Origin: a virus
Strand: one strand, 5' to 3'
Virus record (IMG/VR): IMGVR_UViG_3300031344_000086
Span: 1 to 64,000 of that record
Length of the DNA stretch: 64,000 bases
The first letter of the stretch is position 1, and each line of letters starts with the position of its first letter. Shown piece after piece: positions 6,860 to 34,622 of this stretch. Under the pieces are notes generated by a model. That model was given only the letters and a program-made list of their open reading frames with translations. It did not search any database and had not been told where the DNA came from. Made by a program: the position numbers and the translations under genes.

Positions 6860-7243
6860 ATGAAGAAAATAAATAAAAAATACTCAAAAAAAGAAACATC
6901 AACATTAAAAAAAGAAACCTCACCAGAAATGGACTGGTCGTATTTTTCTCCGTTGGAGATTAAGATACATGGAAATAATTTTGATAGAGCATTTAAATTA
7001 TTCCGTTCGCTTGTGCAGGCTGACGGCGTGCTCGCAGTCTATAAGGAAAAACAAGGTTATGAGAAACCAAGCGTAAAAAAACGCCGTAAGCACGCAGAAA
7101 CCATGCAGCGTTTATATGAAGAAAAAATCAAAGCCGAAAAAATTGCCTCCGGCGAATACGAAAAAGAAAAGATAAAGAAAGAAGCTAAGAAACAAAAACG
7201 TCGTCAAGAACGAGATGCAAAGAGGACAGAAGATGTCGGATAA
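6860..7243 (+). CDS. rpsU: Ribosomal protein bS21 homologue with basic C-terminal extension
   Basis: 127 residues. Residues about 31-92 align with bacterial bS21: Asn-x-Phe-Asp-x-Ala-x-x-x-Phe, then a Gly-Val-Leu-Ala turn, then Tyr-Glu-Lys-Pro followed by a run of Lys/Arg. Bacterial bS21 is about 70 residues; this copy has about 30 extra N-terminal residues and a long Lys/Glu/Arg C-terminal helix. bS21 sits on the 30S platform next to the anti-Shine-Dalgarno end of 16S rRNA and helps initiation. Phage bS21 homologues are known from large phages. The likely effect is to bias host ribosomes towards phage mRNA. The start is the ATG after the hairpin-spaced SD. Confidence 0.88.
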   Translation: MKKINKKYSKKETSTLKKETSPEMDWSYFSPLEIKIHGNNFDRAFKLFRSLVQADGVLAVYKEKQGYEKPSVKKRRKHAETMQRLYEEKIKAEKIASGEYEKEKIKKEAKKQKRRQERDAKRTEDVG

Positions 7244-7760
7244 CGATAATTTTATACGAAACCCGAATCGTAAAAATAACCAAGAGCGTCATATTACATA
7301 TGAGCCAGAACATATTCGTCTTGGAATTAAACCAGTTAAAATGGAAAGAAAAGTTGTTCCGTTCGTAAAATCTTCAAAAAATGATACAGATTATGCTTCC
7401 ATTGATGGAGCTATTTATGATGATAATGGAGATGAAATTAAAGTAGAGCCGGGGCACGTCATAGATAATAATGATTATGTTTTCCCACCATCAAAAGCGC
7501 CAAACAGACCAGCTCAACAACGAGTGGTAGAAGAACAGCCAGATGTTTTGGATAAACAAAACGGAACGCCAAAAGTTGGTGAATATATACTTATGGTGGC
7601 TGGTAAGATCATTGATACCGGTTCATTAGAATCTATTGAAGCGACAGCAAGAGCAATTTTATATGGTGAAAACGAAAGTTTTCAAGAAGAAGTTAAAGTT
7701 GATGATATAGTAGTATTGAAACGCGTTGGAATTAATGTAGGTATATTTATAGATAGGTAA
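7233..7760 (+). CDS. Hypothetical protein
   Basis: 175 residues from the ATG at 7233, preferred over the in-frame ATG at 7215 because an AGAGGA SD lies just upstream. The N-terminal 110 residues are polar and low in hydrophobics (likely disordered, with a Pro-rich linker). The C-terminal 65 form a compact alpha/beta domain. It overlaps the end of the bS21 gene. Not recognised. Confidence 0.65.
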   Translation: MSDNDNFIRNPNRKNNQERHITYEPEHIRLGIKPVKMERKVVPFVKSSKNDTDYASIDGAIYDDNGDEIKVEPGHVIDNNDYVFPPSKAPNRPAQQRVVEEQPDVLDKQNGTPKVGEYILMVAGKIIDTGSLESIEATARAILYGENESFQEEVKVDDIVVLKRVGINVGIFIDR

Positions 7761-7763
7761 TAG

Positions 7764-8471
7764 ATGGCTAATAATACAGAACAATTTAATCCTGATGGAT
7801 ATGCTCGCGAGCCTGAACCGCGTAAAGCATCAGATATTTTGCTTGCATTGGAAACCAAAGTAGAAACATTAACAAAGCTTGTATATAATCAAGATATGCT
7901 ATTGAAACTTATTGCAGATCGAACGAATAAAATATATGCTTACATTGATGAATTACAAAAAGAATACAAGGAAGCTCAAAATCAAAAATCAGAAGAAGAC
8001 GAAGAAGACCAAGAAGATTCGAGAGTTATTAATGTATCTAATGAGCATCAGATAACGGAAGTTAAAGAACAAATTGGTCAACGTCGTATACAGCCACGAG
8101 CCGGTCCAAATGCCCCATCCCCGCCACAGCCGCCTATTTTAGCAGTTCCGAATCAGCAGCCAGCACCCAAGCCCCAACAGACGACTGGAAGCGATAAAAA
8201 GGTTCCGGTAATACAGAGAGTTTCCGATCAAACTGGAAAGGATATTTTTATGTCTGAAATTTTAATATCAGATGAAAATGGTAATGAAATTCATAAAACA
8301 AAAACCAATGCAGTTGGTAAATGGCAAGCTATGTTAAGACCGGGAAAATACATAGTTAAAATATCTAAAACAGATACGGCAACGAAAAAAGTTTTACAGT
8401 CTACGCAAAATATAACTATTGGTAATTCAAGTTCAACATTGATACTTCCAGTAGTAATAATGAATAGATAA
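7764..8471 (+). CDS. Coiled-coil protein with C-terminal carboxypeptidase-regulatory/Ig-like domain
   Basis: 235 residues in three parts: an N-terminal helix/coiled coil (about 20-85), a Pro/Gln-rich linker (about 110-150), and a C-terminal beta-sandwich (about 155-235) with the Asp-Glu-Asn-Gly-x-Glu ... Thr-Asn-x-x-Gly-x-Trp ... Pro-Gly-Lys-Tyr pattern typical of CarboxypepD_reg-like domains. Such domains decorate phage structural proteins. A virion accessory or fibre-associated role is inferred. Confidence 0.68.
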   Translation: MANNTEQFNPDGYAREPEPRKASDILLALETKVETLTKLVYNQDMLLKLIADRTNKIYAYIDELQKEYKEAQNQKSEEDEEDQEDSRVINVSNEHQITEVKEQIGQRRIQPRAGPNAPSPPQPPILAVPNQQPAPKPQQTTGSDKKVPVIQRVSDQTGKDIFMSEILISDENGNEIHKTKTNAVGKWQAMLRPGKYIVKISKTDTATKKVLQSTQNITIGNSSSTLILPVVIMNR

Positions 8472-8473
8472 TT

Positions 8474-8806
8474 ATGGACGGCTACACCGAAGTAAGTGAT
8501 GAAATTGTTGAAAAATATCTAAAAATGCAAGAACTTTTTGACCATCAGGTTAATTTAAATAAAGAATTGGTTGATATATCGAAAGAGTTAAGCGAAATAC
8601 CGGAGATGCCAGAAAACTTAGATAAATGGATTGACAGCATCCCAAATGAAAAAAGTAAATTTAAGTTGACAGATTACAATAGATTGTTTAAAGTTAGTAA
8701 GAAGTATAACCAGTTAGCAGAAAAACGTGAAGAAAACGCGCAAAAGATAAAAGTTCTTGTTATAGATAATCTAATTGATAGAATAAATGAGATATTAGGA
8801 AAGTGA
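8474..8806 (+). CDS. Hypothetical coiled-coil protein
   Basis: 110 residues, charged and helical throughout with a heptad-like pattern and one Pro-rich turn (residues about 36-50). It starts two bases after the preceding stop. No family recognised. Confidence 0.6.
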   Translation: MDGYTEVSDEIVEKYLKMQELFDHQVNLNKELVDISKELSEIPEMPENLDKWIDSIPNEKSKFKLTDYNRLFKVSKKYNQLAEKREENAQKIKVLVIDNLIDRINEILGK

Positions 8807-8816
8807 TATATTTTGT

Positions 8817-9485
8817 ATGAAGTTTCAGGTTATTGTTTCAGATCCACCGTGGGGTGGATTTAAAGATAAATTAAAAATGTCAGATGTTAAGCGTGGTGCC
8901 GAGGCAAATTACAACGGCACAATGTCTATTAAACACATATGTGATCTTCCAGTAAAACAAATCGCTGATCCGAATGGATGTCTTTTAGCATTGTGGGTTC
9001 CAAGTTCCCTACTACAAGATGGTATGGATACCATGAATGCTTGGGGGTTTAAACAGAAACAAACTTATGTATGGTGTAAATCAAAAAAGGAAACTTCAAT
9101 TTATGAGTTGCTTAATAAACAACTATATACGTTTGAGAAATTGCAAGATAAAGTTCAATATATTATAAAAAACTTATTGTCATTCGGGATGGGCAGATTA
9201 TTTAGACAATCACACGAGATATGTCTCATTGGAACGAATAATAACGGTATATATGAACAATTAGAAAACCGATCTCAACGATCAGTTTCTTTTGCTACAA
9301 ATCTAAAACATTCTCAGAAGCCAGAGGATTTACAAAACTCACTCGACCTAATGTTTCCAAAAGCCAATAAATTAGAAATGTTTGCGAGACGTCAGCGAGA
9401 AGGTTGGATATGCGTTGGAAATCAAGCACCAGCAACAATGAATGAAGACATAAAGGTATCGTTAGAAAAATTAATCAATGGATAA
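8817..9485 (+). CDS. MT-A70-like adenine N6-methyltransferase
   Basis: 222 residues. The catalytic DPPW motif is at residues 9-12 and lies at the very N terminus, as in compact MT-A70 proteins. Further family signs are Leu-Trp-Val-Pro after a hydrophobic strand, Ser-His-Glu-Ile-Cys-Leu-Ile-Gly, and His-Ser-x-Lys-Pro followed by a Phe-Ala-Arg-Arg segment and a final Gly-Trp. MT-A70 enzymes transfer methyl from SAM to N6 of adenine in DNA or RNA; here DNA protection of the phage or RNA marking are both possible. It overlaps the following HNH gene by 8 bases. Confidence 0.88.
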   Translation: MKFQVIVSDPPWGGFKDKLKMSDVKRGAEANYNGTMSIKHICDLPVKQIADPNGCLLALWVPSSLLQDGMDTMNAWGFKQKQTYVWCKSKKETSIYELLNKQLYTFEKLQDKVQYIIKNLLSFGMGRLFRQSHEICLIGTNNNGIYEQLENRSQRSVSFATNLKHSQKPEDLQNSLDLMFPKANKLEMFARRQREGWICVGNQAPATMNEDIKVSLEKLING

Positions 9486-9993
9486 TAAGAAAACATTACT
9501 ACTAAATTATACTGATGAGATTATTGCGTTCATAAAAGAAAAGAAAGCACTACGATTAGTTTATAAAGGTAAAGCAGAAGTTATATCAGTATGGGACAAT
9601 ATAAAGTTTCGTGTTAGCAGTGGTGTTATGCATTTACCGGCGGTTATAAAGCTTAAATATTATGTTTTTAGGAAGTTTTCTAAAAGAGGAATAGTTTTTT
9701 CAAGGTTAAATGTATTAAAGAGAGATAAGTATAGTTGTCAGTATTGTGGGAAAGTCTTAAAATCTACACAAGCAACAATTGATCATGTTTTTCCTAAAAC
9801 ATTAGGCGGTCAATCAACATTCGAGAATTGTGTAGTTGCTTGTAAGAAATGTAATTCAAAAAAGAGCAGTAAAACATTAGAAGAATCAGGAATGAAATTA
9901 ATTAGAGAACCAACAGTTCCATTGGAACATATACATTATATGTCCACCGAGGACGGTTGGCATAAGGATTGGGAAAAATATTTAAAAAAATAA
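9478..9993 (+). CDS. HNH endonuclease
   Basis: 171 residues with a McrA-type HNH core: Arg-Asp-x-x-x-Cys-Gln-Tyr-Cys-Gly, then Thr-Ile-Asp-His-Val-x-Pro, then Asn-Cys-x-x-x-Cys-x-x-Cys-Asn. The four Cys bind structural zinc and the His/Asn coordinate the catalytic metal. The N-terminal 75 residues are an extra basic domain. Its gene overlaps the methyltransferase gene, so the two may act together (modification and cleavage of unmodified DNA). It is not closely similar to the two larger HNH proteins at 10243 and 18882. Confidence 0.85.
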   Translation: MDNKKTLLLNYTDEIIAFIKEKKALRLVYKGKAEVISVWDNIKFRVSSGVMHLPAVIKLKYYVFRKFSKRGIVFSRLNVLKRDKYSCQYCGKVLKSTQATIDHVFPKTLGGQSTFENCVVACKKCNSKKSSKTLEESGMKLIREPTVPLEHIHYMSTEDGWHKDWEKYLKK

Positions 9994-9994
9994 G

Positions 9995-10014
9995 TAAAAA
10001 CTTAACTTAATAAA
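9995..10014 (+). promoter_or_regulatory. 20-base element copy 1 (shared with 31734)
   Basis: TAAAAACTTAACTTAATAAA matches the element at 31734-31753 at 19 of 20 bases. Both lie in gene-free DNA 64-80 bases before short basic proteins with strong SDs. A phage-specific promoter is a reasonable reading; no other copy was noticed. Confidence 0.4.
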
Positions 10015-10024
10015 TCAATAACTC

Positions 10025-10048
10025 GTCATCAATATATAAGTTGATGGC
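10025..10048 (+). other. Hairpin in leader of lysine-rich gene
   Basis: An 8-pair stem (one G-T pair) closing an 8-base loop TATATAAG, between the candidate promoter element and the SD. No T-tract follows, so it is not an intrinsic terminator; it could stabilise the leader RNA. Confidence 0.35.
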
Positions 10049-10060
10049 AATTAAGCCTTC

Positions 10061-10072
10061 AAAGGAGGTGAT
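10061..10072 (+). promoter_or_regulatory. Perfect Shine-Dalgarno for lysine-rich gene
   Basis: AAAGGAGGTGAT is fully complementary to the bacterial 16S rRNA 3' end (anti-SD and neighbours), with six bases between GGAGG and ATG 10075. It is the strongest ribosome-binding site I noticed in the window and predicts very high translation. Confidence 0.85.
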
Positions 10073-10074
10073 AC

Positions 10075-10155
10075 ATGGCTAAAGCAAAAAAGTCTACAAA
10101 GACTACAAAGAGTGCAAAAAAGAGTGCTAAAAAAGGTAAAAAATCCTCAAAATAA
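10075..10155 (+). CDS. 26-residue lysine-rich basic peptide
   Basis: A 26-codon gene (ATG to TAA) too short for usual gene calls. The product is composed only of Met, Ala, Lys, Ser, Thr and one Gly; 13 residues are Lys, in Lys-Lys pairs spaced by Ser/Thr/Ala, as in histone H1-type tails. The perfect SD, a monocistronic setting and a strong terminator 16 bases after the stop argue it is real and highly expressed. It could bind DNA, RNA or the ribosome. The lysine-rich tails at 28680 and 59150 have similar composition. Function not established. Confidence 0.75.
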   Translation: MAKAKKSTKTTKSAKKSAKKGKKSSK

Positions 10156-10170
10156 TCACTCGGTAATATG

Positions 10171-10212
10171 AATAGGACACACTACTTAATAGTTTTGTGT
10201 CCTATTTTTTTT
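10171..10212 (+). terminator. Intrinsic terminator after lysine-rich gene
   Basis: Perfect 11-base stem (AATAGGACACA / TGTGTCCTATT), 14-base loop, followed by a run of eight T's (10205-10212). It ends the unit that holds the methyltransferase, HNH and lysine-rich genes. Confidence 0.88.
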
Positions 10213-10242
10213 ATGTATAAAACAGCATTTATATAGGTATTT

Positions 10243-11034
10243 ATGAAAATGTATAAGGTATGTAGAGGATGCGGATTAAATAAAGCAAAAGAAGAATATA
10301 CACCATCGAAGTTTAAAAAAGGAAGGTGTAAAGATTGTGTTCGTAAACAAAAAGAAAAATGGATAATTGAAAATAAAGAAAAAATAGCATTATATTGTAG
10401 AAATTATAACCAGACTCATAAAGAAGAAATCAGAGAAAGAAAAAGAAAGCATTACCAAGATAACAAAGAAGAATCAAAGAAAAGAAAATATAAAATTTAT
10501 AAAGATAATAAAGAGTCTATTTTAGAAAAGGCAAATAGGTATTATGAAGAACACAGGAGTGAAAGAATAGAGTATCAAATTAATTATATTGCAAATAAAA
10601 GAGAAACAGACCCTTCATTTAAATTTATGTTTAATGTATCCGCAATAATAAGATATATGTTAAAAAGTCAAGGTTCATCAAAACAAGGAAAATCTTGTAA
10701 AACCAAACTTCCATTCACAAGCGAAGAGTTATGCGCGCACTTAGAAAATCTTTTTACCCATCCTGATAGTCTTGGGCCAAATGGAGAAGTATGGATGACA
10801 AAAGAAAATCATGGTAATTACATAAAATCAAAATGGAATGATAAAGATCCTGCTACTTGGACTTGGCAAATAGATCATATAAAACCTCATTCTGATTACC
10901 CGTATGATAGTATGGATCACCCTAATTTTCTAAAAGTATGGGATCTTTCTAACCTTAGACCGTTGTCCTCAAAGAGAAATCACGATGAAGGGGCTAACAG
11001 GACACGACACAAAACACCAAAGAAAAGAAGTTAA
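10243..11034 (+). CDS. HNH homing-type endonuclease, paralogue 1
   Basis: 263 residues. An N-terminal Cys-x2-Cys...Cys-x2-Cys zinc finger (residues about 8-30), a long Lys/Glu/Tyr-rich helical linker (about 35-125), and a C-terminal nuclease core with Trp-Gln-Ile-Asp-His-Ile-x-Pro-His-Ser and Leu-Ser-Asn-Leu-Arg-Pro-Leu. The C-terminal half is clearly paralogous to the protein at 18882 (shared Trp-x-Ile/Leu-Asp-His, His-Ser-Asp, Tyr-Asp-Ser and Asn-Leu-Arg-Pro). It is free-standing, just downstream of a terminator, as often seen for mobile endonuclease genes. Confidence 0.85.
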   Translation: MKMYKVCRGCGLNKAKEEYTPSKFKKGRCKDCVRKQKEKWIIENKEKIALYCRNYNQTHKEEIRERKRKHYQDNKEESKKRKYKIYKDNKESILEKANRYYEEHRSERIEYQINYIANKRETDPSFKFMFNVSAIIRYMLKSQGSSKQGKSCKTKLPFTSEELCAHLENLFTHPDSLGPNGEVWMTKENHGNYIKSKWNDKDPATWTWQIDHIKPHSDYPYDSMDHPNFLKVWDLSNLRPLSSKRNHDEGANRTRHKTPKKRS

Positions 11035-11042
11035 GTAAATAT

Positions 11043-11252
11043 ATGTTGTGTCCAAATTGTAGTAAATTAGCAATACTAAATACAGAAAGAACTTGTTTGC
11101 GTTGCAAGGGAAAAATACTTAATAATCTTTCTTGTATATGTGATCGATGTAGTACGGAACAGAATATGTGTTCTATATGTTTGAAACGTTTAACTAAGCC
11201 ATTGGATATTAAAACACGCAGAGGCTGCAAGGCTTGCGGGGGCGGAAAATAA
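11043..11252 (+). CDS. Small multi-Cys zinc-binding protein
   Basis: 69 residues with five Cys-x2-Cys knuckles (CPNC, CLRC, CDRC, CSIC, CKAC), enough for two zinc ions or more. Probably a double zinc ribbon, possibly binding nucleic acid or a transcription/translation factor. No exact family recognised. Confidence 0.68.
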   Translation: MLCPNCSKLAILNTERTCLRCKGKILNNLSCICDRCSTEQNMCSICLKRLTKPLDIKTRRGCKACGGGK

Positions 11253-11306
11253 AATTATTTTTCGTCGGTTGCCTGAATTAAAAAAGTTTCTTAAATTAGA
11301 TGTAAG

Positions 11307-11840
11307 ATGATAATAACAGATGAAAAGATTTTACGACAATCATGTTCAAATGCTTCCGAAAACGAAGTGGGAGCCATTGTAGAGCAATTGGAGCGTGAAT
11401 TAGAATATAGTGAGCGTATGGGAAGACCCGGTATTGGGCTATCCGCAATACAATGTAATATACATAAAAATGTTGCTATCATTCGTATAGATGATAATCA
11501 TAAAGTTAATTTAGTAAATTGTAAAATACAAAATAAATATGATCAATTCAAGTTTCTTGGAGAAGGGTGTTTGAGTTTTCCTAAATTAGTTGGTGATTCG
11601 ATTCGCTATAATGAAGTGCATATAGTAGATAATTTAGTATATCCTCACGCCATGATATTGACTGGTATTATGGCAGTTGTAGCACAGCATGAAATTGATC
11701 ATTGGAATAATCGTCTTTTACCTGATTTTCTTTTACAAGAAGAAAAAAAGACAAAAGTAAGACCTAATGATATATGTCCTTGTGGAAAAGTTGATCCATT
11801 AACTGGAAAAATAAAAAAATATAAGAGATGCTGTGGTTAA
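11307..11840 (+). CDS. def: Peptide deformylase with C-terminal SEC-C motif
   Basis: 177 residues. All three deformylase motifs are intact: GIGLSAIQ (42-49), GEGCLS (85-90, metal-binding Cys88) and HEIDH (128-132, two metal His and catalytic Glu). It removes formyl groups from new N-terminal Met. After the catalytic domain, residues 152-177 form a SEC-C-type zinc motif (Cys157-Pro-Cys159 ... Cys175-Cys176-Gly), with a longer spacing between the Cys pairs than in SecA. SEC-C motifs occur in SecA and other proteins and can contact ribosomes. Phage deformylases are known; the SEC-C tail is the unusual part. Confidence 0.93.
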   Translation: MIITDEKILRQSCSNASENEVGAIVEQLERELEYSERMGRPGIGLSAIQCNIHKNVAIIRIDDNHKVNLVNCKIQNKYDQFKFLGEGCLSFPKLVGDSIRYNEVHIVDNLVYPHAMILTGIMAVVAQHEIDHWNNRLLPDFLLQEEKKTKVRPNDICPCGKVDPLTGKIKKYKRCCG

Positions 11841-20671: not shown

Positions 20672-21913
20672 ATGCAAATCCAATTACAAGAAACTGAATA
20701 CTGCAAAATCCTCGTTCAAGTTGAAGCCGATCAAAATGAAATCAACGAAAAACGAAATGAAGTAATAACTAAATTTAAGGGATATAAAGTTCCGGGCTTC
20801 CGTAAAAATAAGGCTACACCGGAAGCAATAAAAACTCACTTCAAAAAAGAAATACAAAATGCCCTAACACAGGAATTGGCAGAGGCTGCGGTTCAACATA
20901 CATTATTCGAAAAAGATGTAAAGCCATTCGGTCGCCCCCAATTTACACAAATAAAATTAGATAACAATAAGTTTAGTTGTGAGTTTTCGCTTCACAAACA
21001 ACCAGATTTTGAGCTAAAAACATATAAAGATTTTGAGATCCCAAAACCAGCAGTCGGTATATCAGCCGACGAACTTGGAGCAAAAATGCTTCAAGAACTA
21101 CGAGATCGTAATGGTATTACAACAGCATACGGTGAAGATGACGTTGTTCAAATGGGTGATAATGTTGTCATTGACTATCAGGCATTCAAAGATGGAGTTG
21201 CTATTGAAAGTTTCAAAAATGCTGGCGAATTGGTTAGCGTTGGTAAAATTGATATTCCGGGCTTCAGCGAGAATATACTTGGTATGAAAGCCGGGGAAAC
21301 AAGAGAGTTTGAGCTATTATTCGATGCTAAAATTAAACCAGAGTATAATAATCAGATACTTAAGTTTGAAGTAAAATTACATATGGGTAGTAAAGTATCA
21401 CCAGCCGCATTGGATGATGACTTGGCTAAGTCGGTTGGGTTAGAGTCATTGAATGCATTGATGGAAAATGTTAATACTATGGCTGGAAACCGCGTAAAAG
21501 AATTAGAGAAAGCGCAAGTTGTTGATCAAATTGCAAAACGATTGGTGGAGAGTCATGACTTCCTCATTCCTGATTGGATATCAGTAGCAGAAGCTCAAAT
21601 AAATGCGCGTAATAATAGAAAAGACTGGAATACAATATCAGATCAAGAAAAAGAGGTTTTCATAGCCTCGGCTGAAAATAATATTAAGTTGTCGCTCGTG
21701 CTTGATAAAATTAGGGGAGTAGAGTTGGACGCGCAACTTGGTCAAGAAGAATTATTGAAAATAGCCCAAGCTAATCTACAACAACACACACAAGAGCCTC
21801 AAAAGGTGTTTGAGGAATTATATAAAAATGGTCAGTTGGGATTATTTTTAAATAGAATAAAAGATGAATTTACGCTTGAATTTTTAAGTAAAAATTGTAA
21901 AATTATTGAATAA
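20672..21913 (+). CDS. tig: Trigger factor (ribosome-associated chaperone)
   Basis: 413 residues, close to the bacterial length (about 430). The N-terminal ribosome-binding domain carries the signature GFRKNKATP at residues 42-50 (E. coli GFRKGKVP). Residues about 155-240 match the FKBP-type PPIase domain (Gly-Asp-x-Val-x-Ile-Asp-Tyr ... Ile-Pro-Gly-Phe ... Gly-Met-x-Ala-Gly-Glu-Thr-Arg). A helical C-terminal arm domain follows. It would bind near uL23 at the exit tunnel and hold nascent chains. An SD (AAAGGA) precedes the ATG. A whole trigger factor in a phage is rare. Confidence 0.93.
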   Translation: MQIQLQETEYCKILVQVEADQNEINEKRNEVITKFKGYKVPGFRKNKATPEAIKTHFKKEIQNALTQELAEAAVQHTLFEKDVKPFGRPQFTQIKLDNNKFSCEFSLHKQPDFELKTYKDFEIPKPAVGISADELGAKMLQELRDRNGITTAYGEDDVVQMGDNVVIDYQAFKDGVAIESFKNAGELVSVGKIDIPGFSENILGMKAGETREFELLFDAKIKPEYNNQILKFEVKLHMGSKVSPAALDDDLAKSVGLESLNALMENVNTMAGNRVKELEKAQVVDQIAKRLVESHDFLIPDWISVAEAQINARNNRKDWNTISDQEKEVFIASAENNIKLSLVLDKIRGVELDAQLGQEELLKIAQANLQQHTQEPQKVFEELYKNGQLGLFLNRIKDEFTLEFLSKNCKIIE

Positions 21914-22468: not shown

Positions 22469-23008
22469 ATGAAATTATTATGGCTAGATATAGAAACAAC
22501 AGGATTAGATCCTCAAAAAAATGAAATACTTGAAATTGCAATAGCGGAAGCAGAATTAACTGATCCGTTTAATGCAAAATTGATTTACGACGCACCCGTA
22601 TTTTTCCCGGCTCGCCCAAATCAAAAATGGGAACAGTTAGATAAATTTATTATTGACATGCACACTAAGAATGGATTATTCGAAGCGTGTATAAATGGTA
22701 AAGATATTAAGCAAATACAACAAGAGTTATTAGAATTAGTTCCAGTAGTTGAAAATAAAGAGGAGAAGCCAACATTAGCAGGCTCATCTATTCATTTTGA
22801 TCACAGTTTTATTCGCGTTCATATGCCAGAGTTTGCTAAACGATTGTCCCATAGACACATGGATATTTCAGCGATTAAATTATTTTGCCAATCACAGGGA
22901 GCAAAACCATTCCCAAAGGCAGAAGCACATAGAGCAAAAGATGATATTTATGAAAGTATTGCCCATGGGCAAGTGTGCAAAGAATGGTTAAAAAATAATC
23001 TAAAATAA
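22469..23008 (+). CDS. orn: Oligoribonuclease (DEDDh 3'-5' exonuclease)
   Basis: 179 residues, the normal size for Orn. All parts are present: Asp7-Ile-Glu9-Thr-Thr-Gly at the N terminus, Met-His-Thr-Lys-Asn-Gly-Leu, Ala-Gly-Ser-Ser-Ile-x-x-Asp, Met-Asp-Ile-Ser near 130, and His-Arg-Ala-Lys-Asp-Asp-Ile near 152. Orn degrades 2-5 nt RNAs to mononucleotides and can supply nucleotides from degraded RNA. A proofreading role for the polymerase is less likely given this close match to Orn. Confidence 0.92.
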   Translation: MKLLWLDIETTGLDPQKNEILEIAIAEAELTDPFNAKLIYDAPVFFPARPNQKWEQLDKFIIDMHTKNGLFEACINGKDIKQIQQELLELVPVVENKEEKPTLAGSSIHFDHSFIRVHMPEFAKRLSHRHMDISAIKLFCQSQGAKPFPKAEAHRAKDDIYESIAHGQVCKEWLKNNLK

Positions 23009-23479: not shown

Positions 23480-24115
23480 ATGAAAGATGTAAAGGCAAAG
23501 GATGCATCAGATTATGAGTTAATATTTATGTCGTTTCATGAGTCTTCACATACAATCGTTGCTCTTCATAATTTTTTTCAAGTATATTATGTAAATGTTA
23601 AAAACGGTGAAATAAAAGATGGAAGCGCGTTATGGTATACGTCATTCGGAATGAATGACACAGAATTAAAAAGAGCTATTCTATTATTAGAACTGCAAGC
23701 AGAATATGCTGGTTTGCTTGGTGAAAGGATAATCCATAAGGATTTAACTGGTTCACAGAAACTTCCAATGAATTTACGTGTTGGAACATCTCATGATATT
23801 AAACTTGCCTCAGATACTATTAGGTATAATAATTTAGCTGCATCCGGAAAAGACACAGCTAATTTTAAAAAAAATATTCAAAAAAAGACGGAAAAGATTT
23901 TATTAGAATATTGGGATGACGTAAAATTATTAGCTCATACGTTGTATGATAAAAGAGTTATTGAATATCAGGAACTTAAATTACTTCTGATTAGAAAATC
24001 CAAGAATAAAAAGTTTTGGAAAGATAGATTTTCTAAAATTGAACGCATATATGTATATGAAGGAGATAATCATCCGCAAGATGATGTTATTAAAAAAATT
24101 ATATTAAATAAATAA
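23480..24115 (+). CDS. Stand-alone M41 (FtsH)-like metallopeptidase
   Basis: 211 residues. A zinc motif His20-Glu-Ser-Ser-His24 is followed by a helix with Ala-Glu-Tyr-Ala-Gly-Leu-Leu-Gly-Glu-Arg and then Gly-Thr-Ser-His-Asp106-Ile-x-x-Ala-Ser, matching the FtsH peptidase order HExxH ... AG..AE ... G(A/T)SxDxxxA, with Asp106 as third zinc ligand. The AAA+ motor and the membrane segments of FtsH are absent. It probably cleaves unfolded or specific proteins without ATP, or works with a host unfoldase. Confidence 0.75.
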   Translation: MKDVKAKDASDYELIFMSFHESSHTIVALHNFFQVYYVNVKNGEIKDGSALWYTSFGMNDTELKRAILLLELQAEYAGLLGERIIHKDLTGSQKLPMNLRVGTSHDIKLASDTIRYNNLAASGKDTANFKKNIQKKTEKILLEYWDDVKLLAHTLYDKRVIEYQELKLLLIRKSKNKKFWKDRFSKIERIYVYEGDNHPQDDVIKKIILNK

Positions 24116-24198: not shown

Positions 24199-27100
24199 AT
24201 GAGTCAGTTTGTATCGCTTCATAATTATAGTCATTTTTCATTACTTCAATCATTGATATCTCCAAAAGATTTATTTATACGGGCAAAAGAGCTGGGTCAA
24301 TCAGCAGTAGCAATAAACGATACAGGGTCGTTAGCAGCAAGCTGGGACGCGCTAAAAGCATCAAGAGAAACCGGTGTAAAACTAATAATTGGATGTGAGT
24401 TTTATTTTCGTGATTCAAATAAGAATGATGAACAAAGACCAAGATTTATTGTCCTAATAGCTAAAAATTATATTGGATATCAGAATCTACTTCATTTAAA
24501 TAAAGAGGGTTTTGATAACCCGGTAGTAATTACAAAAAAGGTTTTTCCAGTTTTAGATTGGAATCTTTTACAAAAATACTCAGATGGTATAATATGTCTT
24601 ACAGGATGTGCTAATGGCATTGTAGGGCAATTAATTAATAATAAGAACTTCGATGAAGCAGAGGATACATTAAAAAAATTAGTTGGTATTTATGGTGATA
24701 ATCTCGGCGTTGAAGTTCAAACGCATAATTTAGTTCGTCAGGCAAATAATTTTACAGTTGGTATAAATCAACAATTCACAAACGCACATGCCATAAGGCT
24801 TGCAGAAAAATTGAATTTAAAAGTTGTTCCAACAAACTCAGCAAGGTATATAAAACGAGAGCAGGCTAAAATTGAAGATGCATTGCTTGCAATAGGTTCA
24901 ATGCAGCCAACATATTCTAATGCAAGGATAAAGTTTGATACAAATGATATGTATCTAAAATCTTATGATGAGGTAAAATCTTTCTTTTCAAGAAATTATA
25001 GTGATGAGTTTGCTGATAAAATATGTGAAAATACAATCTATTTTTCTAATTTATGTGAGAAATCCGATTGGATTGAACCAAAGTTTTCTAATCCCGGAGG
25101 TAAAGAACTTCCGGTTTTCCCAGTAAGAGATGAAAAAGACTATCCTGAGTTTTGTGAATGGATGCAAAAACAATCCAGTGAAAGAAAAGCGTTAGATGAA
25201 GATAAAAACTTCCTTAGATTTAGATGTGAAAATGAGCTAAAAAGAACAGGATTAAAATATAAAGACGAATATATGAAACGGTTTGAGGAAGAATTGGATG
25301 TTTTATATTATTGTGGAACTAGTTCATATATGTTAATTACAGCAGATTTTATGAATTGGGCAAGAAATAATAATATACCGGTTGGGCCAGGAAGAGGTTC
25401 AGCGGGAGGTTCATTAGTAGCATACCTTCTCGGTATTCATATGGCTGATCCAATAAAATATAAGCTTGTATTCGAAAGATTCTTCAGTAAGAAACGAACC
25501 TCATTCGCAGATATTGATAATGATATCTCAAAAGAAAAACGAGATTTAGTAATAAATTATATTATAGATAAGTATGGAAAAGATAAGTTTGCTCAGGTAA
25601 ATAATTTTATTTATATAACACCAAAGGTATATGTAAAAGATTTATGCAGATCATTAGAATTAGGTGGAGATCGTAAGGCTGCGGTTAAACTCGGAGCAGA
25701 TATATCTGCTATTATTCCTGATAAGATTGATAATGTTCCAATAAGATATTGGAAAGACGCTATAAAACATGCACCGGTTCTTTCTGAATATATTAAAAAA
25801 TATTCTCAAATAGATGAATATAAAACTATATGTGAAAAACCTCGAGCTAACGGGGTTCATGCTTCTGGCATAGTTATATCAAATAGACCGATATCACAAG
25901 TTATTCCAACGAGAATAGATAAAGATGGCACGATATCAATTCAATTAGATAAAGATAGAGCAGAAGAAGCAGGCATAGTAAAAATAGATATTCTTGGTCT
26001 AGAAACATTAGATATTATAGAAAAAACTAACGATCTAATAAAACAAAGTGGAAAACAAGTTCCTAAAATAGATTACGAAGCATATGATAAAAAAACATAT
26101 GATTTAATTACATCAGGTAATACATTCGGGGTGTTCCAATTCGGAACATCAGCTGGAACTATAGATTTATGTAAAAAAATAAAACCAAAAAGTATAGATG
26201 ATCTTGCGATCATAACTACGCTTGCTCGCCCCGCATCGAAAGAGATTAGAGAGGATTTTATTAAAGTAAGAGAAGGTAAAAATGAAAAAAAGTTATTGCA
26301 TCCAAGTCTTGAAAATGCATTAAAACATACATATGGGTTTCCTCTATATGATGAAAGTTTGCTGATCCTTGCTAAGGATGTTGCCGGTTGGGAGCTTGAT
26401 GAAGCAGATAAGTTGAGAAAATTAACAAAAGAAAAAGGTAAAAACCCAGAAAAGGCGGAAAAGTGGAGACAAGAGTTTATTGCCGGCGCCGGAAAGAACA
26501 AAATACCAAATAAGATTGCTATAAAAATATGGCATGAAATTATTGAACCGTTTGGTAAATATAGTTTTAATTGTTCTCACGCGGTTCTGTATTCAATGAT
26601 ATCTTTTCACACAGCATATCTAAAAGCACATTTTCCAACAGAGTTCCTTCTTGCTAACTTAATGTATGAGGTTCGTTCTACAAATGCAAAGGTTGCAAAG
26701 AAAAATATAGAAAAGATAAAACAAGAGATTAGAAAGTCTGGTATTAGAATAGATAAGCCAGATATAAATAAATCCAATATTACATATCAGATACAAAAGG
26801 ACGGATCGTTATTGACTGGTTTTGAAGCATTAAAAAATGTTGGTGATGATGCCATAAAAGATATTATGGTGAAGCGACCGTTCATAAGTTTTGATGATTT
26901 TATGCTTAGATCAGATTTTTCTAAAATGAGATCTAATACTATTCAGGCGTTAGCAGTTAGTGGTTGTTTAGATAGTTTTGGTATACCTAGACATTTAGTA
27001 TTTTTATATTGTCAAGATTATAAAAAGAAACTGCAAGTCTGGCTAAAAAAACACGATCCTAAAATAGAGCATTTTGAATATTCTTGGCCTGTAGAAAAAG

Positions 27101-27717
27101 ACTGGTCGTTGTCAGAACTATACGCACTTGAAGTTCAATGCATGGGCGAAGCATTCATATGCGGTAAAGATAAGGCATACATTGGATTTTTTGATGGAAA
27201 ATCAACAAAAGCAAATGAAATCAAGAAATTAGAGAATAAAACAAAAGTTGGATCAGTAAAAGCAGAAGTTAAAGATATTTTTATGTTAAAAGTAAAAAAA
27301 GAGGGATCCAAATATTTAGGTCAGGATATGGCTAAGATTACAGTTGAAGATGAAACCGGAGAACAATTAAGTCTTACAATATTCCCCGATGGCTGGAAAG
27401 AGGTAAAAGATCGTATGCGATATCTTAGTGGTGGTAGATATAAGTTTGAGGAAGGAATTGCAATACATTTTTCAGGTTCAGTGAATTATTATGGAGATGA
27501 AATTGGTATTGTGTTAGAAAATCTTCATGAATATTGCGCCCCGCCAATAGCGCCTAAAAATCTAAAAGCAAAAAAAGTTGTCAAAAAAGTTTTGAAGACC
27601 GATATAGTAGATAAAAAAGAAGATGTGAATGATGTTAATGATATGATAAGCGATCTTGAAGATGATTTATATTCAGACGGGTTAATTGATTTAGATGATG
27701 AAGAAAATGATAACTAA
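24199..27717 (+). CDS. dnaE: DNA polymerase III alpha subunit (C-family, DnaE-type)
   Basis: 1172 residues, the usual DnaE length. PHP domain at the N terminus (HNYSHFSLL, residues about 8-16), palm with GPGRGSAGGS near 395-405, catalytic Asp438, Asp440, Asp442 (Asp-Ile-Asp-Asn-Asp) and Asp597 (Lys-Ile-Asp-Ile-Leu-Gly), an HASG segment, a tandem HhH region after 880, an OB-fold near 1020-1120 and an acidic C-terminal tail. The PHP metal site is degenerate: two of the first His are replaced and the Asp-His of the second motif is Asp-Thr, so proofreading by PHP is unlikely. It is the replicative polymerase of the phage. Confidence 0.95.
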   Translation: MSQFVSLHNYSHFSLLQSLISPKDLFIRAKELGQSAVAINDTGSLAASWDALKASRETGVKLIIGCEFYFRDSNKNDEQRPRFIVLIAKNYIGYQNLLHLNKEGFDNPVVITKKVFPVLDWNLLQKYSDGIICLTGCANGIVGQLINNKNFDEAEDTLKKLVGIYGDNLGVEVQTHNLVRQANNFTVGINQQFTNAHAIRLAEKLNLKVVPTNSARYIKREQAKIEDALLAIGSMQPTYSNARIKFDTNDMYLKSYDEVKSFFSRNYSDEFADKICENTIYFSNLCEKSDWIEPKFSNPGGKELPVFPVRDEKDYPEFCEWMQKQSSERKALDEDKNFLRFRCENELKRTGLKYKDEYMKRFEEELDVLYYCGTSSYMLITADFMNWARNNNIPVGPGRGSAGGSLVAYLLGIHMADPIKYKLVFERFFSKKRTSFADIDNDISKEKRDLVINYIIDKYGKDKFAQVNNFIYITPKVYVKDLCRSLELGGDRKAAVKLGADISAIIPDKIDNVPIRYWKDAIKHAPVLSEYIKKYSQIDEYKTICEKPRANGVHASGIVISNRPISQVIPTRIDKDGTISIQLDKDRAEEAGIVKIDILGLETLDIIEKTNDLIKQSGKQVPKIDYEAYDKKTYDLITSGNTFGVFQFGTSAGTIDLCKKIKPKSIDDLAIITTLARPASKEIREDFIKVREGKNEKKLLHPSLENALKHTYGFPLYDESLLILAKDVAGWELDEADKLRKLTKEKGKNPEKAEKWRQEFIAGAGKNKIPNKIAIKIWHEIIEPFGKYSFNCSHAVLYSMISFHTAYLKAHFPTEFLLANLMYEVRSTNAKVAKKNIEKIKQEIRKSGIRIDKPDINKSNITYQIQKDGSLLTGFEALKNVGDDAIKDIMVKRPFISFDDFMLRSDFSKMRSNTIQALAVSGCLDSFGIPRHLVFLYCQDYKKKLQVWLKKHDPKIEHFEYSWPVEKDWSLSELYALEVQCMGEAFICGKDKAYIGFFDGKSTKANEIKKLENKTKVGSVKAEVKDIFMLKVKKEGSKYLGQDMAKITVEDETGEQLSLTIFPDGWKEVKDRMRYLSGGRYKFEEGIAIHFSGSVNYYGDEIGIVLENLHEYCAPPIAPKNLKAKKVVKKVLKTDIVDKKEDVNDVNDMISDLEDDLYSDGLIDLDDEENDN

Positions 27718-30251: not shown

Positions 30252-30265
30252 TAAAAAGGAATAAA

Positions 30266-31408
30266 ATGGATAATAAATTAGAATCATTTTTTAAATCATT
30301 TGCGGAAGCAGATGAAGAGTTAGATTTTAGATTTGCAGATCAATTTGGGTCTAAGGTTCCAGTTGTAAAAACTGGAAGTCCCGGTCTTGATGATGCATTG
30401 TCGTCTGGTGGTCTTCCATTTGGAAGAATAATTCAATTATACGGGCCACCACACAGTGGTAAAACATTAATGTCTATGCTTGCAATTTTAGAAGCTCAAA
30501 AGTTAAATACAGAATCTAAGCAATTATTTATAGATGCCGAAGGAACATTTAGCTCTATATGGGCTCAAACACTTGGAATAGATATATCGCGTGTTCTAAT
30601 TGTGGATGGGGATTCCGCAGTCAATGGTCGAAGACTATTTGAAACATTACTAGGGACTCCAAAAGAGGATAGCAAGCATATTTTAGTTGGTAAATCAAAA
30701 GAAGGATTTTTAGATAAGGTTGCGGATAAAACATTCGATTTTAACTTGGTTGTATTGGATTCGCTTGGAGCAATTATACCACCGGGTGAAGATGTTTCAG
30801 CAGTTGGTAAAATGAATATGTCATTGCTTGCCAGGTTTCTTTCAACAACAATGAAAAAACTATCGTTAGAAGTTAAAAAGGCTAATCTTCCTTTTATAAT
30901 TATTAATCACAAAAGAGATGGAATGGATCCGTATGGACCAGACCATACGTTCTCTGGTGGTAATACATACGGACATTTTCTATCTTGTAATGTGTATTTT
31001 GAAGCGATACAAAGAAAAGATGCCCAAATTTTAAATGAAAAAGATCAAAAAATTGGACACATGATAAGAGCAAAAGTTGAAAAAAGCAAGTTTGGAATTA
31101 CACCAAGACAATGCGAATTCAAAGTGGATTTTTCTAAGGGTGTAGTAGATAAGCATGAAGAAATTGCTAAACTTGCATTAGATTACAATGTTGTTGAGAA
31201 GCCTACATCAGTATCACATCAATATGGAGATTATAAATGGGTAGGTTTTCCAAAGTTTTGTGAAGCTCTTTTAGAAAATCCTGCGCTATGTCAAGAAATA
31301 TCAGATAAGATTGAAATAGCAAGAGATTCAAAATTCAATAGAAAACCAGATTCAGCAAATGTTGTCGAAATGAAAACAGAAAAAAAATCAAAGAAAGTAG
31401 CGGTCTAA
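30266..31408 (+). CDS. recA: RecA-family recombinase
   Basis: 380 residues from the ATG at 30266, chosen because AAAGGA is placed 5 bases upstream; the ATG at 30242 would add eight atypical residues. Walker A is GPPHSGKT at residues 60-67. The core fits RecA/UvsX, including Leu-Val-Val-Leu-Asp-Ser-Leu-Gly (Walker B), an Ile-Asn-His-Lys-Arg-Asp-Gly loop (L1/L2 area) and a Gly-Gly-Asn-Thr segment. Strand exchange with SbcCD, SSB and the RuvC-like resolvase points to recombination-dependent replication. Confidence 0.93.
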   Translation: MDNKLESFFKSFAEADEELDFRFADQFGSKVPVVKTGSPGLDDALSSGGLPFGRIIQLYGPPHSGKTLMSMLAILEAQKLNTESKQLFIDAEGTFSSIWAQTLGIDISRVLIVDGDSAVNGRRLFETLLGTPKEDSKHILVGKSKEGFLDKVADKTFDFNLVVLDSLGAIIPPGEDVSAVGKMNMSLLARFLSTTMKKLSLEVKKANLPFIIINHKRDGMDPYGPDHTFSGGNTYGHFLSCNVYFEAIQRKDAQILNEKDQKIGHMIRAKVEKSKFGITPRQCEFKVDFSKGVVDKHEEIAKLALDYNVVEKPTSVSHQYGDYKWVGFPKFCEALLENPALCQEISDKIEIARDSKFNRKPDSANVVEMKTEKKSKKVAV

Positions 31409-31409
31409 C

Positions 31410-31736
31410 ATGCCAGATGATGTAGTGATTCAACCAGCAAAACTTCTGGAAAACTTCAAGCTTCCAGCACGAACAACACCAACATACTTGGTTATAATAA
31501 ATACTGGTAAAGCAAAAGAAGTAGACTCATATTTTATAGCAGTAAAGCGTGATGATAACTCGTCTAGTTCTGCTAAGTTCGTTGGATTTTTTTCCAATAA
31601 ACCAGAAAAAGATATTAGGTCGTCATACGATCAAATAATAAAAGAAACAGATACGGCAGAATTTATAGAAATAGAGTTTCCTTGGGCTAAAATATGTAGT
31701 ATTCAAAGCCTAATTTATAGACATAAAACCAAATAA
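31410..31736 (+). CDS. Hypothetical protein downstream of recA
   Basis: 108 residues, beta-rich, ending in a Lys-rich stretch. It starts one base after the recA stop and is likely co-translated. Not recognised. Confidence 0.58.
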   Translation: MPDDVVIQPAKLLENFKLPARTTPTYLVIINTGKAKEVDSYFIAVKRDDNSSSSAKFVGFFSNKPEKDIRSSYDQIIKETDTAEFIEIEFPWAKICSIQSLIYRHKTK

Positions 31737-31753
31737 AAACTTACCTTAATAAA
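31734..31753 (+). promoter_or_regulatory. 20-base element copy 2 (shared with 9995)
   Basis: TAAAAACTTACCTTAATAAA differs from the 9995 copy by one base. It lies 64 bases before the ATG at 31798. The shared distance to a strong SD and a short basic gene makes a promoter likely. Confidence 0.4.
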
Positions 31754-31797
31754 CAATCAAATAAACAAAAACAGAAAACAAAACAGGAGAAATCAAA

Positions 31798-32112
31798 ATG
31801 AGCAAGACATCAAAAACAACACGAACAGTTCGTAAATCAAGCACCATAACACGACCAAACGTTGATCGTACAATAGTTCAAAGCATAAAAGAACAAGTAA
31901 TCAGTCTTCTTGATACAGCTAAGAACGGTCAATGGGTAGGAACAATGACAGACCTAAGCGGCAAAATCCGCACCGGTATTCGTTCACCAAGCTATCTTCG
32001 TCGTGTTCTAAACGTTGCGGTTCCATCAATTCGCAACGCAGGCGTTAGCGTTAAATTCGGTCGCACAACCGATCATTCACGTACACGTTATGTTCGTTTT
32101 ATTCAGGGTTAA
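31798..32112 (+). CDS. Small basic protein, probably nucleic-acid-binding
   Basis: 104 residues: a Lys/Ser/Thr/Arg N terminus (about 25 residues), then a compact domain with a Leu-Arg-Arg-Val-Leu helix and an Arg-rich end (Arg-x-Arg-Tyr-Val-Arg). AGGAG sits 9 bases before the ATG. Codons are richer in CGT and GTT than in neighbours, which suggests high expression. It has the same upstream element as the lysine-rich peptide gene. A winged-helix or other DNA-binding fold is possible; the family is not recognised. Confidence 0.65.
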   Translation: MSKTSKTTRTVRKSSTITRPNVDRTIVQSIKEQVISLLDTAKNGQWVGTMTDLSGKIRTGIRSPSYLRRVLNVAVPSIRNAGVSVKFGRTTDHSRTRYVRFIQG

Positions 32113-32228
32113 ATCTGGTAATAAATTAACATATTAATAGAGAAAATAGTTCCTCCAAAAGAGGCTATATTCGGTAAAAACAAACAGTAAATCTAATAGT
32201 TAGATTAAATAGATAAAAGGAAAATAAA
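32113..32228 (+). other. Intergenic leader of the SSB gene with two hairpins
   Basis: 116 bases without a gene. One imperfect hairpin is near 32147-32167 (ATAG..CCTC / GAGG CTAT); a second is perfect, AATCTAA-TAG-TTAGATT at 32190-32206. A purine-rich AAAAGGAAAA (32215-32224) just before the SSB start acts as SD. The hairpins lack T-tracts. They could regulate or stabilise the SSB transcript, as in T4 gene 32 autoregulation; that comparison is inference. Confidence 0.35.
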
Positions 32229-32921
32229 ATGGCAACAGCAAATAATAATGGTGAAGTAACTTGGTCAGACACAGTACTATTCGATCCAAATAAAGGCAAC
32301 GTAAAGAAGGACGAATGGCTACGATTAAAAGAAGGTTCTAATGTAGTTAGAATACTTACTCTTCCGCATCAGTATGCACAACATACTTATAATATTGAAG
32401 GCGGTAGAAAGTATGGCTATCGTGTTAATTGTTCAAAAACAAAAGAAACAGGATGTCCATTATGCGAACAAGGAGACAATGCTAAACGACGTTGGCTACT
32501 TGGTGTTATTGATCGTGAAACTAATATGTATAAAATCCTCGATGTTAGTGCAGCTATATTTAAAGGAGTTAAAACTTTAAATGATGATGCTGATTGGGGT
32601 GATCCAATAGCATACGATGTTTCAATAATCAATACGCCTGCCGCAGGAGCACAAAGATATTCGGTTATTGGTAAACCTAAGAAACCACTATCTGCTTCTG
32701 ATGTCGCTATTCAAGCAGAAAATGGAACAGAGGTACTGCTTCGTAGAACAGCAGCACCAACATATGAACAAGTTCAAGCTCGTCTTGCTAAAATAGCAGA
32801 AGAGGTTGGCGGGAATACTGGTGGATCTTCTAATTCATCAAATAATTCAGATGATAGCGAAGAAGATGAAAGTCAAGATAACTTCTTTCGTGATTACGAT
32901 TCTAAGAAAAAATCAGCATAA
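32229..32921 (+). CDS. ssb: Single-stranded DNA-binding protein (gp32-like)
   Basis: 230 residues. It has a zinc site His52 ... Cys68 ... Cys76-x2-Cys79, as in T4 gp32 and related phage SSBs, in a beta-rich OB-type core, then a Gly/Ser/Asn linker and an acidic Asp/Glu/Ser C-terminal tail that usually recruits other replication proteins. It closes an operon; a strong terminator lies 25 bases after its stop. Confidence 0.88.
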   Translation: MATANNNGEVTWSDTVLFDPNKGNVKKDEWLRLKEGSNVVRILTLPHQYAQHTYNIEGGRKYGYRVNCSKTKETGCPLCEQGDNAKRRWLLGVIDRETNMYKILDVSAAIFKGVKTLNDDADWGDPIAYDVSIINTPAAGAQRYSVIGKPKKPLSASDVAIQAENGTEVLLRRTAAPTYEQVQARLAKIAEEVGGNTGGSSNSSNNSDDSEEDESQDNFFRDYDSKKKSA

Positions 32922-32945
32922 ATAAAATATAAATAAAAAAATGAT

Positions 32946-32981
32946 AAAGCCGAGAGATTAGCGTTTCTCGGCTTTTCTTTT
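32946..32981 (+). terminator. Intrinsic terminator after ssb
   Basis: Perfect 10-base stem AAAGCCGAGA/TCTCGGCTTT with a 10-base loop and a T-rich tail (TTTTCTTTTT). Confidence 0.88.
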
Positions 32982-33013
32982 ATGTTTAATCAATGCGGCG
33001 ATATATACTAATT

Positions 33014-33673
33014 ATGCAAACAATTCTTGGTATAGATTGTAGTACTAAAACGGTCGGGTATTCCATTATTGAAACAGATGATCGATTAAATAATCCTAAA
33101 TTAGTTTTGTGCTCATTCATCAAACCACCCCAGAAGGGAAATCGTTTTCAGCGTATAGTTGAAGCTCAAAATATGATTATTGATATACTAAATAAGTATA
33201 AACCAAACATTATAGGTATAGAAGAGATTATTCAGTTCATGAAAGGTCGCAGTGGTGCGAAGACAATTATTGCGCTTGCGCGCATAAATACAAGTATAGG
33301 GCTCATTTGCTACAATTACCTTGGGCACTCACCAGCCATGTGCAACGTGATGGCGATTCGTCATGGAATTAAATTAGACGAGGTTCTTCCAAAAAAGGAA
33401 CAAATCCCAGAGTTGATTGAAAAGATTTTAGGAATTAAGTTTCCATATGTAATGGACGGTAAAAAAATTGCCGAAGAAAGTTTTGATGCCGCCGACTCGT
33501 GTGCGGTTGCACTATATACAATCAAACATATTAAAGATTTAGAGGCAAAATTATTGAAGCCAATTAATATGGCGCTTCCTAAAAAACGTCTATCAAAAAT
33601 AAAAAAAGAACGAAAACTAATTCAGCAAGAATATAAGGAAATTATAGGATATGAATATTCAAGAAGCGTATAA
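33014..33673 (+). CDS. ruvC: RuvC-like Holliday junction resolvase
   Basis: 219 residues from the ATG at 33014 (the in-frame ATG at 32993 would add seven residues that do not match). RNase H fold with the expected acids: Asp8 in Gly-Ile-Asp-Cys-Ser, Glu in Ile-Gly-Ile-Glu-Glu, and Asp-Ala-Ala-Asp-Ser near residue 165. It cuts four-way junctions made by RecA-driven recombination and may clear branches before packaging. Its 3' end overlaps dnaJ by 23 bases. Confidence 0.88.
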   Translation: MQTILGIDCSTKTVGYSIIETDDRLNNPKLVLCSFIKPPQKGNRFQRIVEAQNMIIDILNKYKPNIIGIEEIIQFMKGRSGAKTIIALARINTSIGLICYNYLGHSPAMCNVMAIRHGIKLDEVLPKKEQIPELIEKILGIKFPYVMDGKKIAEESFDAADSCAVALYTIKHIKDLEAKLLKPINMALPKKRLSKIKKERKLIQQEYKEIIGYEYSRSV

Positions 33674-34622
33674 TACATTGGAAGTTAAAGATAGTATATC
33701 TGATGTAGATTTAAAATCTACATATAAAAAATTAGCGAAACAGTTTCATCCGGATGTGTATAAAACGGATACAGATAAATTTAAAAAAATCAATGAAGCG
33801 TATCAGCTTATAACTGACTATCGTAAAAATCCTGAAAAATATAATCCGCCATCACGTAGCCCATTCGGTGGCGGAGGGTTTAATATTAATTTAAATGATA
33901 TTTTCAATGCTGGGTTTGGACGATCTAACCAATCTGACACAAATATATCCCCAATAAAGATAGATACAAAAATATCTTTTAAAGAAAGTGTTCTTGGAGC
34001 TGAAAAAGAGATAGCATATAAAAAGACAGTAAAATGCGATGATTGTGATGGTAAAGGTAAAGAAGCAATCACCAATGGTTGTAAATCTTGTAATGGTTTT
34101 GGTAGGGTCGTACAACAACAGGGCAATATGCACTTCACAAGTGGTTGTAATAAATGTCATGGCAGAGATATAAAATTTAAGGATTGTCTTAAGTGTAAAT
34201 CTAAAGGTGTATTAGAAGTAGATGTTAATGCAAAAATAAACATTCCACCTGGCAACTCAACAACACTTAGAGTACAAGGGGCTGGTAATTTTATTGGTTC
34301 TGGTCCGTTCGGCGATATGTATTCTGATGTTTTGTTAAATGTATCCGTTGAACCAGATGCAGATCTAAAATTAGATGGAGCCAACGTTGTATATAATTTA
34401 CAAATACCGTTAGTTGATGCACTGACAGGATGCAGCGTAGATGTAAAAACTATTTATGATACACGATCCATAAATATTCCATCCAAATCGAAAAACAAAG
34501 ATGAAGTGATAATTAATGGTTGCGGTGTAAAACATGCTAATGGAAATCAGCGTGTTATATTGAATATTGATTACGGTAATGTTGATAAGTTGATAGAGTT
34601 TCTAAAACAAGAAGGAAAATAA
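33651..34622 (+). CDS. dnaJ: DnaJ (Hsp40) co-chaperone, full type A
   Basis: 323 residues. J-domain with His33-Pro-Asp35, a Gly/Phe-rich stretch (about 65-90), four Cys-x2-Cys-x-Gly-x zinc repeats (CDDC, CKSC, CNKC, CLKC, about 127-185), and two C-terminal substrate-binding beta domains. It is somewhat shorter than E. coli DnaJ (376). It would stimulate host DnaK. No DnaK or GrpE is in the window, so the phage depends on host partners. Confidence 0.93.
   Translation: MNIQEAYNTLEVKDSISDVDLKSTYKKLAKQFHPDVYKTDTDKFKKINEAYQLITDYRKNPEKYNPPSRSPFGGGGFNINLNDIFNAGFGRSNQSDTNISPIKIDTKISFKESVLGAEKEIAYKKTVKCDDCDGKGKEAITNGCKSCNGFGRVVQQQGNMHFTSGCNKCHGRDIKFKDCLKCKSKGVLEVDVNAKINIPPGNSTTLRVQGAGNFIGSGPFGDMYSDVLLNVSVEPDADLKLDGANVVYNLQIPLVDALTGCSVDVKTIYDTRSINIPSKSKNKDEVIINGCGVKHANGNQRVILNIDYGNVDKLIEFLKQEGK

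Follow-up and report, generated by a model that had tools for sequence, protein, structure and literature searches.

Why should a phage carry its own versions of factors that attend the nascent chain at the bacterial ribosome? The question is raised by a stretch of 64,000 nucleotides (hereafter the window; positions 1 to 64,000 of the IMG/VR virus record IMGVR_UViG_3300031344_000086, a linear fragment of 68,670 bases). It encodes a homologue of the ribosomal protein bS21, a peptide deformylase (PDF) with a SEC-C-type tail, a full-length trigger factor (TF), a stand-alone M41/FtsH-type metallopeptidase domain and a DnaJ, all on the plus strand. An earlier note on this DNA described the five genes as a co-translational protein-maturation kit whose products act in order at the ribosome, and proposed that the phage uses them to reshape host ribosomes for its own proteins. 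In the clade to which this phage belongs, all members with adequate coverage were found to have TF, PDF with SEC-C, bS21 and DnaJ, and each near-complete genome examined also has methionine aminopeptidase (MetAP). The reading that we prefer, at a probability of about 0.52, is that these core genes of the clade provide a phage line for N-terminal processing and folding at the exit tunnel of host ribosomes.

Conservation of the kit in the clade

We analysed the presence and order of the five genes in 24 related records. TF, DnaJ and the M41-like gene were each present in 23 records, bS21 and PDF in 22. Two records (G025 and G027) miss some of the kit genes, which would lie beyond the end of the contig, and these absences look like truncations. 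The order of the five genes is identical in the 22/22 records that have all of them, over spans of 23–32 kb. Colinearity is not restricted to the kit: the block that runs from topoisomerase I to the terminase is colinear as a whole in 14/14 relatives for which every window gene was mapped, and the kit genes are interspersed in this block with those encoding DNA polymerase III alpha, RecA and RuvC. Because the whole block is colinear, we regard the kit as made of core genes that are not late additions and that have no operon of their own. An operon was considered and rejected on the same grounds. Hence, the earlier notion of a kit is sustained as a set conserved across the clade, but not as a dedicated transcription unit. 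The ratios dN/dS of the kit genes against the two nearest relatives are 0.07–0.17 (0.07–0.10 for bS21), in the same range as those of other core genes, which indicates that the kit genes are under purifying selection.

Deeper relatives, with a large terminase (TerL) at 38–47% identity, retain bS21, PDF, TF and DnaJ. The M41-like protein was undetected in the stretches read from six bS21-bearing records (G034, G047, G052, G053, G054 and G063). A further 50 PDF-bearing virus records contained TF in 37 cases and bS21 in 34. All the bS21-positive records are TF-positive (34/34), and bS21 is found in 0/13 TF-negative records. The Fisher p value of this association is 1.6e-9, with no correction for relatedness; the records come mostly from one large clade, and the value overstates their independence. 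The earlier note had suggested checking whether these families co-occur more often than expected by chance; the common order in 22/22 records indicates that the set is not a product of chance.

The individual proteins

The deformylase (11307–11840, 177 aa) matches the Pfam family Pep_deformylase (E = 1.9e-22) and PDB profiles (E = 2e-21). As modelled by AlphaFold (pLDDT 93.7), its fold agrees with PDF structures (E = 1e-11). Its motifs GIGLSAIQ, EGCLS and QHEIDH are intact. Using tolerant patterns for motifs I–III (GxGLAAxQ, EGCLS and HExDH), we recovered all three in 23/23 sequences, GIGLSAIQ being the form of motif I in the window. The C-terminus of the protein is a SEC-C-type zinc motif (11775–11837, plus strand; CPCGKVDPLTGKIKKYKRCCG) with a 7-residue insertion relative to the consensus. 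This copy has no Pfam SEC-C match and was assigned through alignment. Defined as CxC...C(C/H) with a GSGKKYKKCCG-type core, the motif ends the PDF in 23/23 inner-clade members. Pfam SEC-C scores over the cut-off in 19/24 related records, only in the open reading frame of the PDF and nowhere else in the record. The SEC-C domain reported in the earlier note is thus real. It was found on 61 of 79 viral PDFs; these include several other viral PDFs, and some deep members lack the domain. In other viral deformylases (L352–L357), its place is taken by another conserved extension at the C-terminus (GRNEKVTI...EEKRE.KWKKAE).

What could such a tail do? The PDF of E. coli docks to ribosomal protein L22 by its C-terminal helix, and MAP competes for this site (PMC8712518). 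The model of the phage PDF has no C-terminal helix beyond the catalytic helix. Ribosome docking by the tail is suggested because the SEC-C zinc motif of SecA binds 70S ribosomes near uL23 (PMC6620043). By analogy with SecA, the tail may be a ribosome dock that replaces the C-terminal helix.

The trigger factor (20672–21913, 413 aa) has the ribosome-binding loop PGFRKNK. It matches Trigger_N (3.3e-21), FKBP_C (4e-6) and Trigger_C (2e-5) in Pfam, all over the cut-off, and trigger factor in PDB across 380 residues (E = 1e-33). The loop reads GFR or GYR in 24/24 sequences. Identity between TF sequences follows phage kinship, with 81–85% in close relatives and about 40% in far ones. Outside the large clade TF is rare. 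Matches to TF among 50,697 phage records are mostly in short unannotated fragments and include no named jumbo phage; bacterial contamination is the probable source of those in named 'phage' records. None of nine named huge phages has TF (phage G, six uncultured huge-phage genomes, one Lak phage and Atu_ph07). Hence, we rejected the possibility that the kit is common to all huge phages.

The bS21 homologue (6860–7243, 127 aa) has basic N- and C-terminal extensions flanking the S21 domain. It matches Ribosomal_S21 in Pfam (E = 1.5e-13), and the profile of the clade matches solved bS21 chains in PDB (E = 2e-8). Its gene lies on the common strand, adjoins topoisomerase I and is ~38 kb away from the terminase. 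A phage bS21 can become part of a bacterial ribosome, as the protein of a pelagiphage enters E. coli ribosomes (PMC6375957). The leader of the gene (6832–6859, plus strand) has a strong Shine-Dalgarno sequence (TAAGGAGC), then a 6-bp hairpin, then the ATG. Pairing in the hairpin is retained in three to four relatives despite differing stem sequences, and this element may control translation. Other members (L114, L116, L121, L122, L129 and L130) show a bS21-specific leader, AAGGTTAAAACGGGTTA, placed ~22–27 nt before the start; sequences close to it seldom occur in the rest of the mapped regions.

The DnaJ (33651–34622) is composed of a J domain with the HPD motif, a degenerate cysteine-rich zinc finger and a C-terminal domain. 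Pfam DnaJ (1.4e-12) and DnaJ_C (3e-22) are both over the cut-off, and the protein also matches phrog_14336 (1e-49). The HPD motif is present in 22/22 sequences. The zinc finger, which in class A J-proteins has four CxxCxGxG repeats, mostly retains its cysteines, its repeats 3–4 are degenerate and its Pfam match is below the cut-off. Hsp70/DnaK was found in 0/24 related records, so the phage DnaJ would need the DnaK of the host. The previously proposed hand-off to DnaK is thus not supported in its original form.

The M41-type metallopeptidase domain (23480–24115) carries HESSH and a conserved Asp106. The protein by itself has no Pfam match. The profile of its clade matches FtsH in PDB (E = 2e-7), and its AlphaFold model (pLDDT 88, pTM 0.88) matches FtsH protease domains (E = 6.5e-5). 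All copies have HExxH (24/24), with lengths of 197–227 aa, and a Walker A motif occurs in 0/24 sequences. Because Walker A is lacking, we interpret the protein as a lone peptidase domain rather than a processive AAA+ protease. It was initially described as an FtsH-like peptidase charged with clearance. The M41 fold and its motif agree with the first part of this description, but without the AAA+ ATPase the protein is not a full FtsH, and clearance by unfolding is unlikely. For the other four families, Pfam matches over the cut-off leave the initial assignments standing, with PDB profile matches in addition for bS21, PDF and TF.

An invariant set among variable translation genes

MetAP was present in 3/3 near-complete relatives examined (G004, G005 and G009). 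We searched a 406-kb relative with 59 E. coli queries, nearly all of them translation or proteostasis factors and S21 not among them, and only PDF, TF and MetAP matched. GroEL, EF-Tu and other ribosomal proteins were undetected by these E. coli queries, which short ribosomal proteins could escape. Additional genes differ between the near-complete relatives. For example, G009 encodes GroES, ClpB and a longer FtsH-like match, and G005 (432,844 bp) encodes EF-G, two adjacent ClpP genes and a tmRNA. The tmRNA gene of G005 is at L477:15645–15997, with the tag ANDNAFVPMAQAA (Rfam E = 9e-44). ARAGORN gives tRNAs in varying numbers: G004 has 2, G009 has 16 predictions and G005 has at least 40 entries. 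Because these other items differ among relatives, we conclude that the invariant part concerns N-terminal processing and nascent-chain handling, and that decoding genes are variable. The intact active-site and ribosome-binding motifs of PDF, TF and DnaJ, together with MetAP, fit the ordered pathway envisaged in the earlier note.

Proposed working of the kit and alternatives

How might these proteins work together? The phage bS21 would swap into host 30S subunits. The phage PDF, which its SEC-C tail and not the usual C-terminal helix would keep close to the tunnel exit, would deformylate nascent chains, from which the phage MetAP, encoded outside the fragment, would take off the methionine. The phage TF would dock via its GFRxGK-type loop and shield the chains, and the phage DnaJ would hand clients to the host DnaK. 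Finally, the M41-type peptidase might, with no need for ATP, cut part of the unfolded or surplus protein. As a result, processing and folding capacity would be sustained under heavy phage protein synthesis. The binding, exchange and benefit steps are those that we infer, and it is plausible that the phage reshapes host ribosomes in favour of its own proteins.

Several observations weigh against an exit-tunnel line. The kit is spread across 28 kb amid replication genes, and the joint action of its products is deduced from the pathway and not from an operon. The PDF of several deep members has no SEC-C, and an M41-like protein escaped detection in the stretches read from deeper members, so that neither is indispensable to the set. 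The association between TF and bS21 derives mostly from one clade. Furthermore, the activity of TF and DnaJ is not confined to the ribosome.

The main alternative, which we regard as less likely, is that the genes are a general supplement to proteostasis. They would be independent insurance copies of the chaperones and processing enzymes of the host, used after host shut-off and acting where the host versions act, with no reprogramming of the ribosome, and their fixed order would simply be that of a colinear core genome. This is consistent with the colinearity of the whole block from bS21 to the terminase, well beyond the kit, and with the mixing of kit genes among replication genes. It is also in line with the variability of the other proteostasis genes (GroES, ClpB and the longer FtsH-like match in one relative, two ClpP and EF-G in another), and with the chaperones and Clp proteases borne by bS21-phages elsewhere, as mentioned in the main text of a previous study (PMC9723584). 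However, the invariant set is skewed towards exit-site and ribosome factors (bS21, PDF, MetAP and TF). An assortment of insurance copies is also difficult to reconcile with the lack of Hsp70 in the 24 records and with the failure to detect GroEL, EF-Tu and other ribosomal proteins in the 406-kb relative, and the SEC-C tail of the PDF points to a specific location.

It is unlikely that the phages swap the whole exit-site set of the host. PDF with SEC-C would then dock near uL23, TF would take the nascent chain, bS21 would be replaced and the M41-type peptidase would cleave the displaced host factor, resulting in phage-dedicated ribosomes on both the initiation and the exit sides. An active exchange of factors, where the peptidase removes host bS21 or exit-site factors and the phage versions replace them to produce phage-specialised ribosomes, fits the speculation by McNutt et al. 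(2023, PMC9976891) that bS21-phages encode a protease against the host bS21. The M41-like gene is present in 23/24 inner-clade records, and its metal-binding motif is invariant. Yet, the peptidase lacks an AAA+ domain with which folded proteins could be pulled, and we rate such an exchange as very improbable because bS21 also occurs in deeper members where no M41-like peptidase was detected in the stretches read. Lastly, a chance grouping in a misassembled or host-contaminated contig, which could be suspected in a linear metagenomic fragment when most TF matches in named 'phage' records probably stem from contaminating bacterial DNA, is refuted by the comparative data: 22 terminase-defined records of the clade have the same genes in a common order, the kit genes sit between phage replication and structural genes, and the identity of TF follows the phage.

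Placement of the phage

Replication genes (DNA polymerase III alpha, RecA, RuvC, topoisomerase I and SbcCD-like) come first in the window, followed by the terminase and the portal. DNA polymerase III alpha (24199–27717, plus strand; Pfam) is a core gene within the kit interval and was found in 14/14 mapped relatives. TerL (45347–47611, plus strand; PHROG terminase) is the gene that defines the clade, and the portal protein (47660–49519, plus strand; PHROG portal) was used for clade placement. Relatives reached 448 kb in terminase searches and 481 kb in deformylase searches. The window probably comes from a tailed phage of an uncultivated clade with a full genome of ~400–450 kb. Isolate phages included no close relatives; the nearest cultivated phage by portal is Bacillus phage G (32% identity, E = 9e-69). 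The host could not be assigned via TF, whose bacterial matches in a genome scan are only 20–22% identical and come from unrelated phyla. Shine-Dalgarno matches of at least 5 occur in 18/77 genes versus ~4.4 in shuffles, a modest enrichment that counts weakly against a strictly SD-less Bacteroidota host.

Two further features of the window concern genes outside the kit. TerL contains a mini-intein (residues 74–210) in its Walker A loop, with Asp as first residue instead of Cys or Ser, and with W, C and +1 T at apparent class 3 intein positions. Empty alleles are found in L004, L006 and L007. Related inteins of larger size occur in L003, where the first residue is Asp, and in L010, where it is Gln and the site is another one. 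A DNA polymerase exonuclease-like gene and two small neighbours (22469–23008) are matched in 0/14 mapped relatives (tblastn), and this group looks like an insertion.

Comparison with known systems

That TF belongs to the core genes of a phage clade, alongside PDF with SEC-C, bS21, DnaJ and MetAP, would make nascent-chain processing a conserved target of viral control. These are purifiable proteins with which one may ask whether a virus can specialise the bacterial ribosome, and the fusion of PDF to SEC-C offers a testable, putatively new docking mode for an enzyme at the exit tunnel.

Phage bS21 with variable extensions, and its proposed swap into ribosomes, are also described in the studies on Bacteroidetes phages (Chen et al. 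2022, PMC9723584) and on ribosomal proteins of viruses (Mizuno et al. 2019, PMC6375957). In the phages of Chen et al., bS21 is on the reverse strand amid terminase, portal and capsid genes, whereas here it is on the common strand and distant from the terminase. The main text of that work mentions chaperones and Clp proteases, but not deformylase, trigger factor or DnaJ. The huge phages described by Al-Shayeb et al. (2020, PMC7162821), among them Mahaphage-type and Lak phages, are similar in having large genomes with scattered rpS21, peptide deformylase and tRNAs, and DnaJ-like genes in several of them. The main text does not mention trigger factor, and Trigger_N was found neither in the six uncultured huge-phage genomes nor in the Lak genome cited above. 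Bacillus phage G has a genome of similar size and encodes 0/5 of the kit families when searched with the clade profiles; it has ClpP and ClpX instead.

At the level of single proteins, the PDF of the marine Synechococcus phage S-SSM7 (PDB 3uwa) shares the fold and catalytic core of the clade PDF, to which the latter adds the SEC-C tail. The C-terminal metal-binding domain of SecA has the same basic-rich CxC...CC(G/H) arrangement, which is here fused to a deformylase, with ribosome binding being putative. FtsH (M41) has the HExxH peptidase fold and the conserved Asp in common with the clade protein, which differs in being stand-alone and in lacking the AAA+ domain.

We found no description of the combination of TF, PDF with SEC-C, MetAP, bS21 and DnaJ in the literature searched, which lies mostly outside subscription journals, and trigger factor goes unmentioned in the main text of the huge-phage and bS21-phage papers. 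Within this literature, what was known is that phages carry translation genes singly; what is new is the occurrence of TF with PDF-SEC-C, MetAP, bS21 and DnaJ as part of the core of a megaphage clade.

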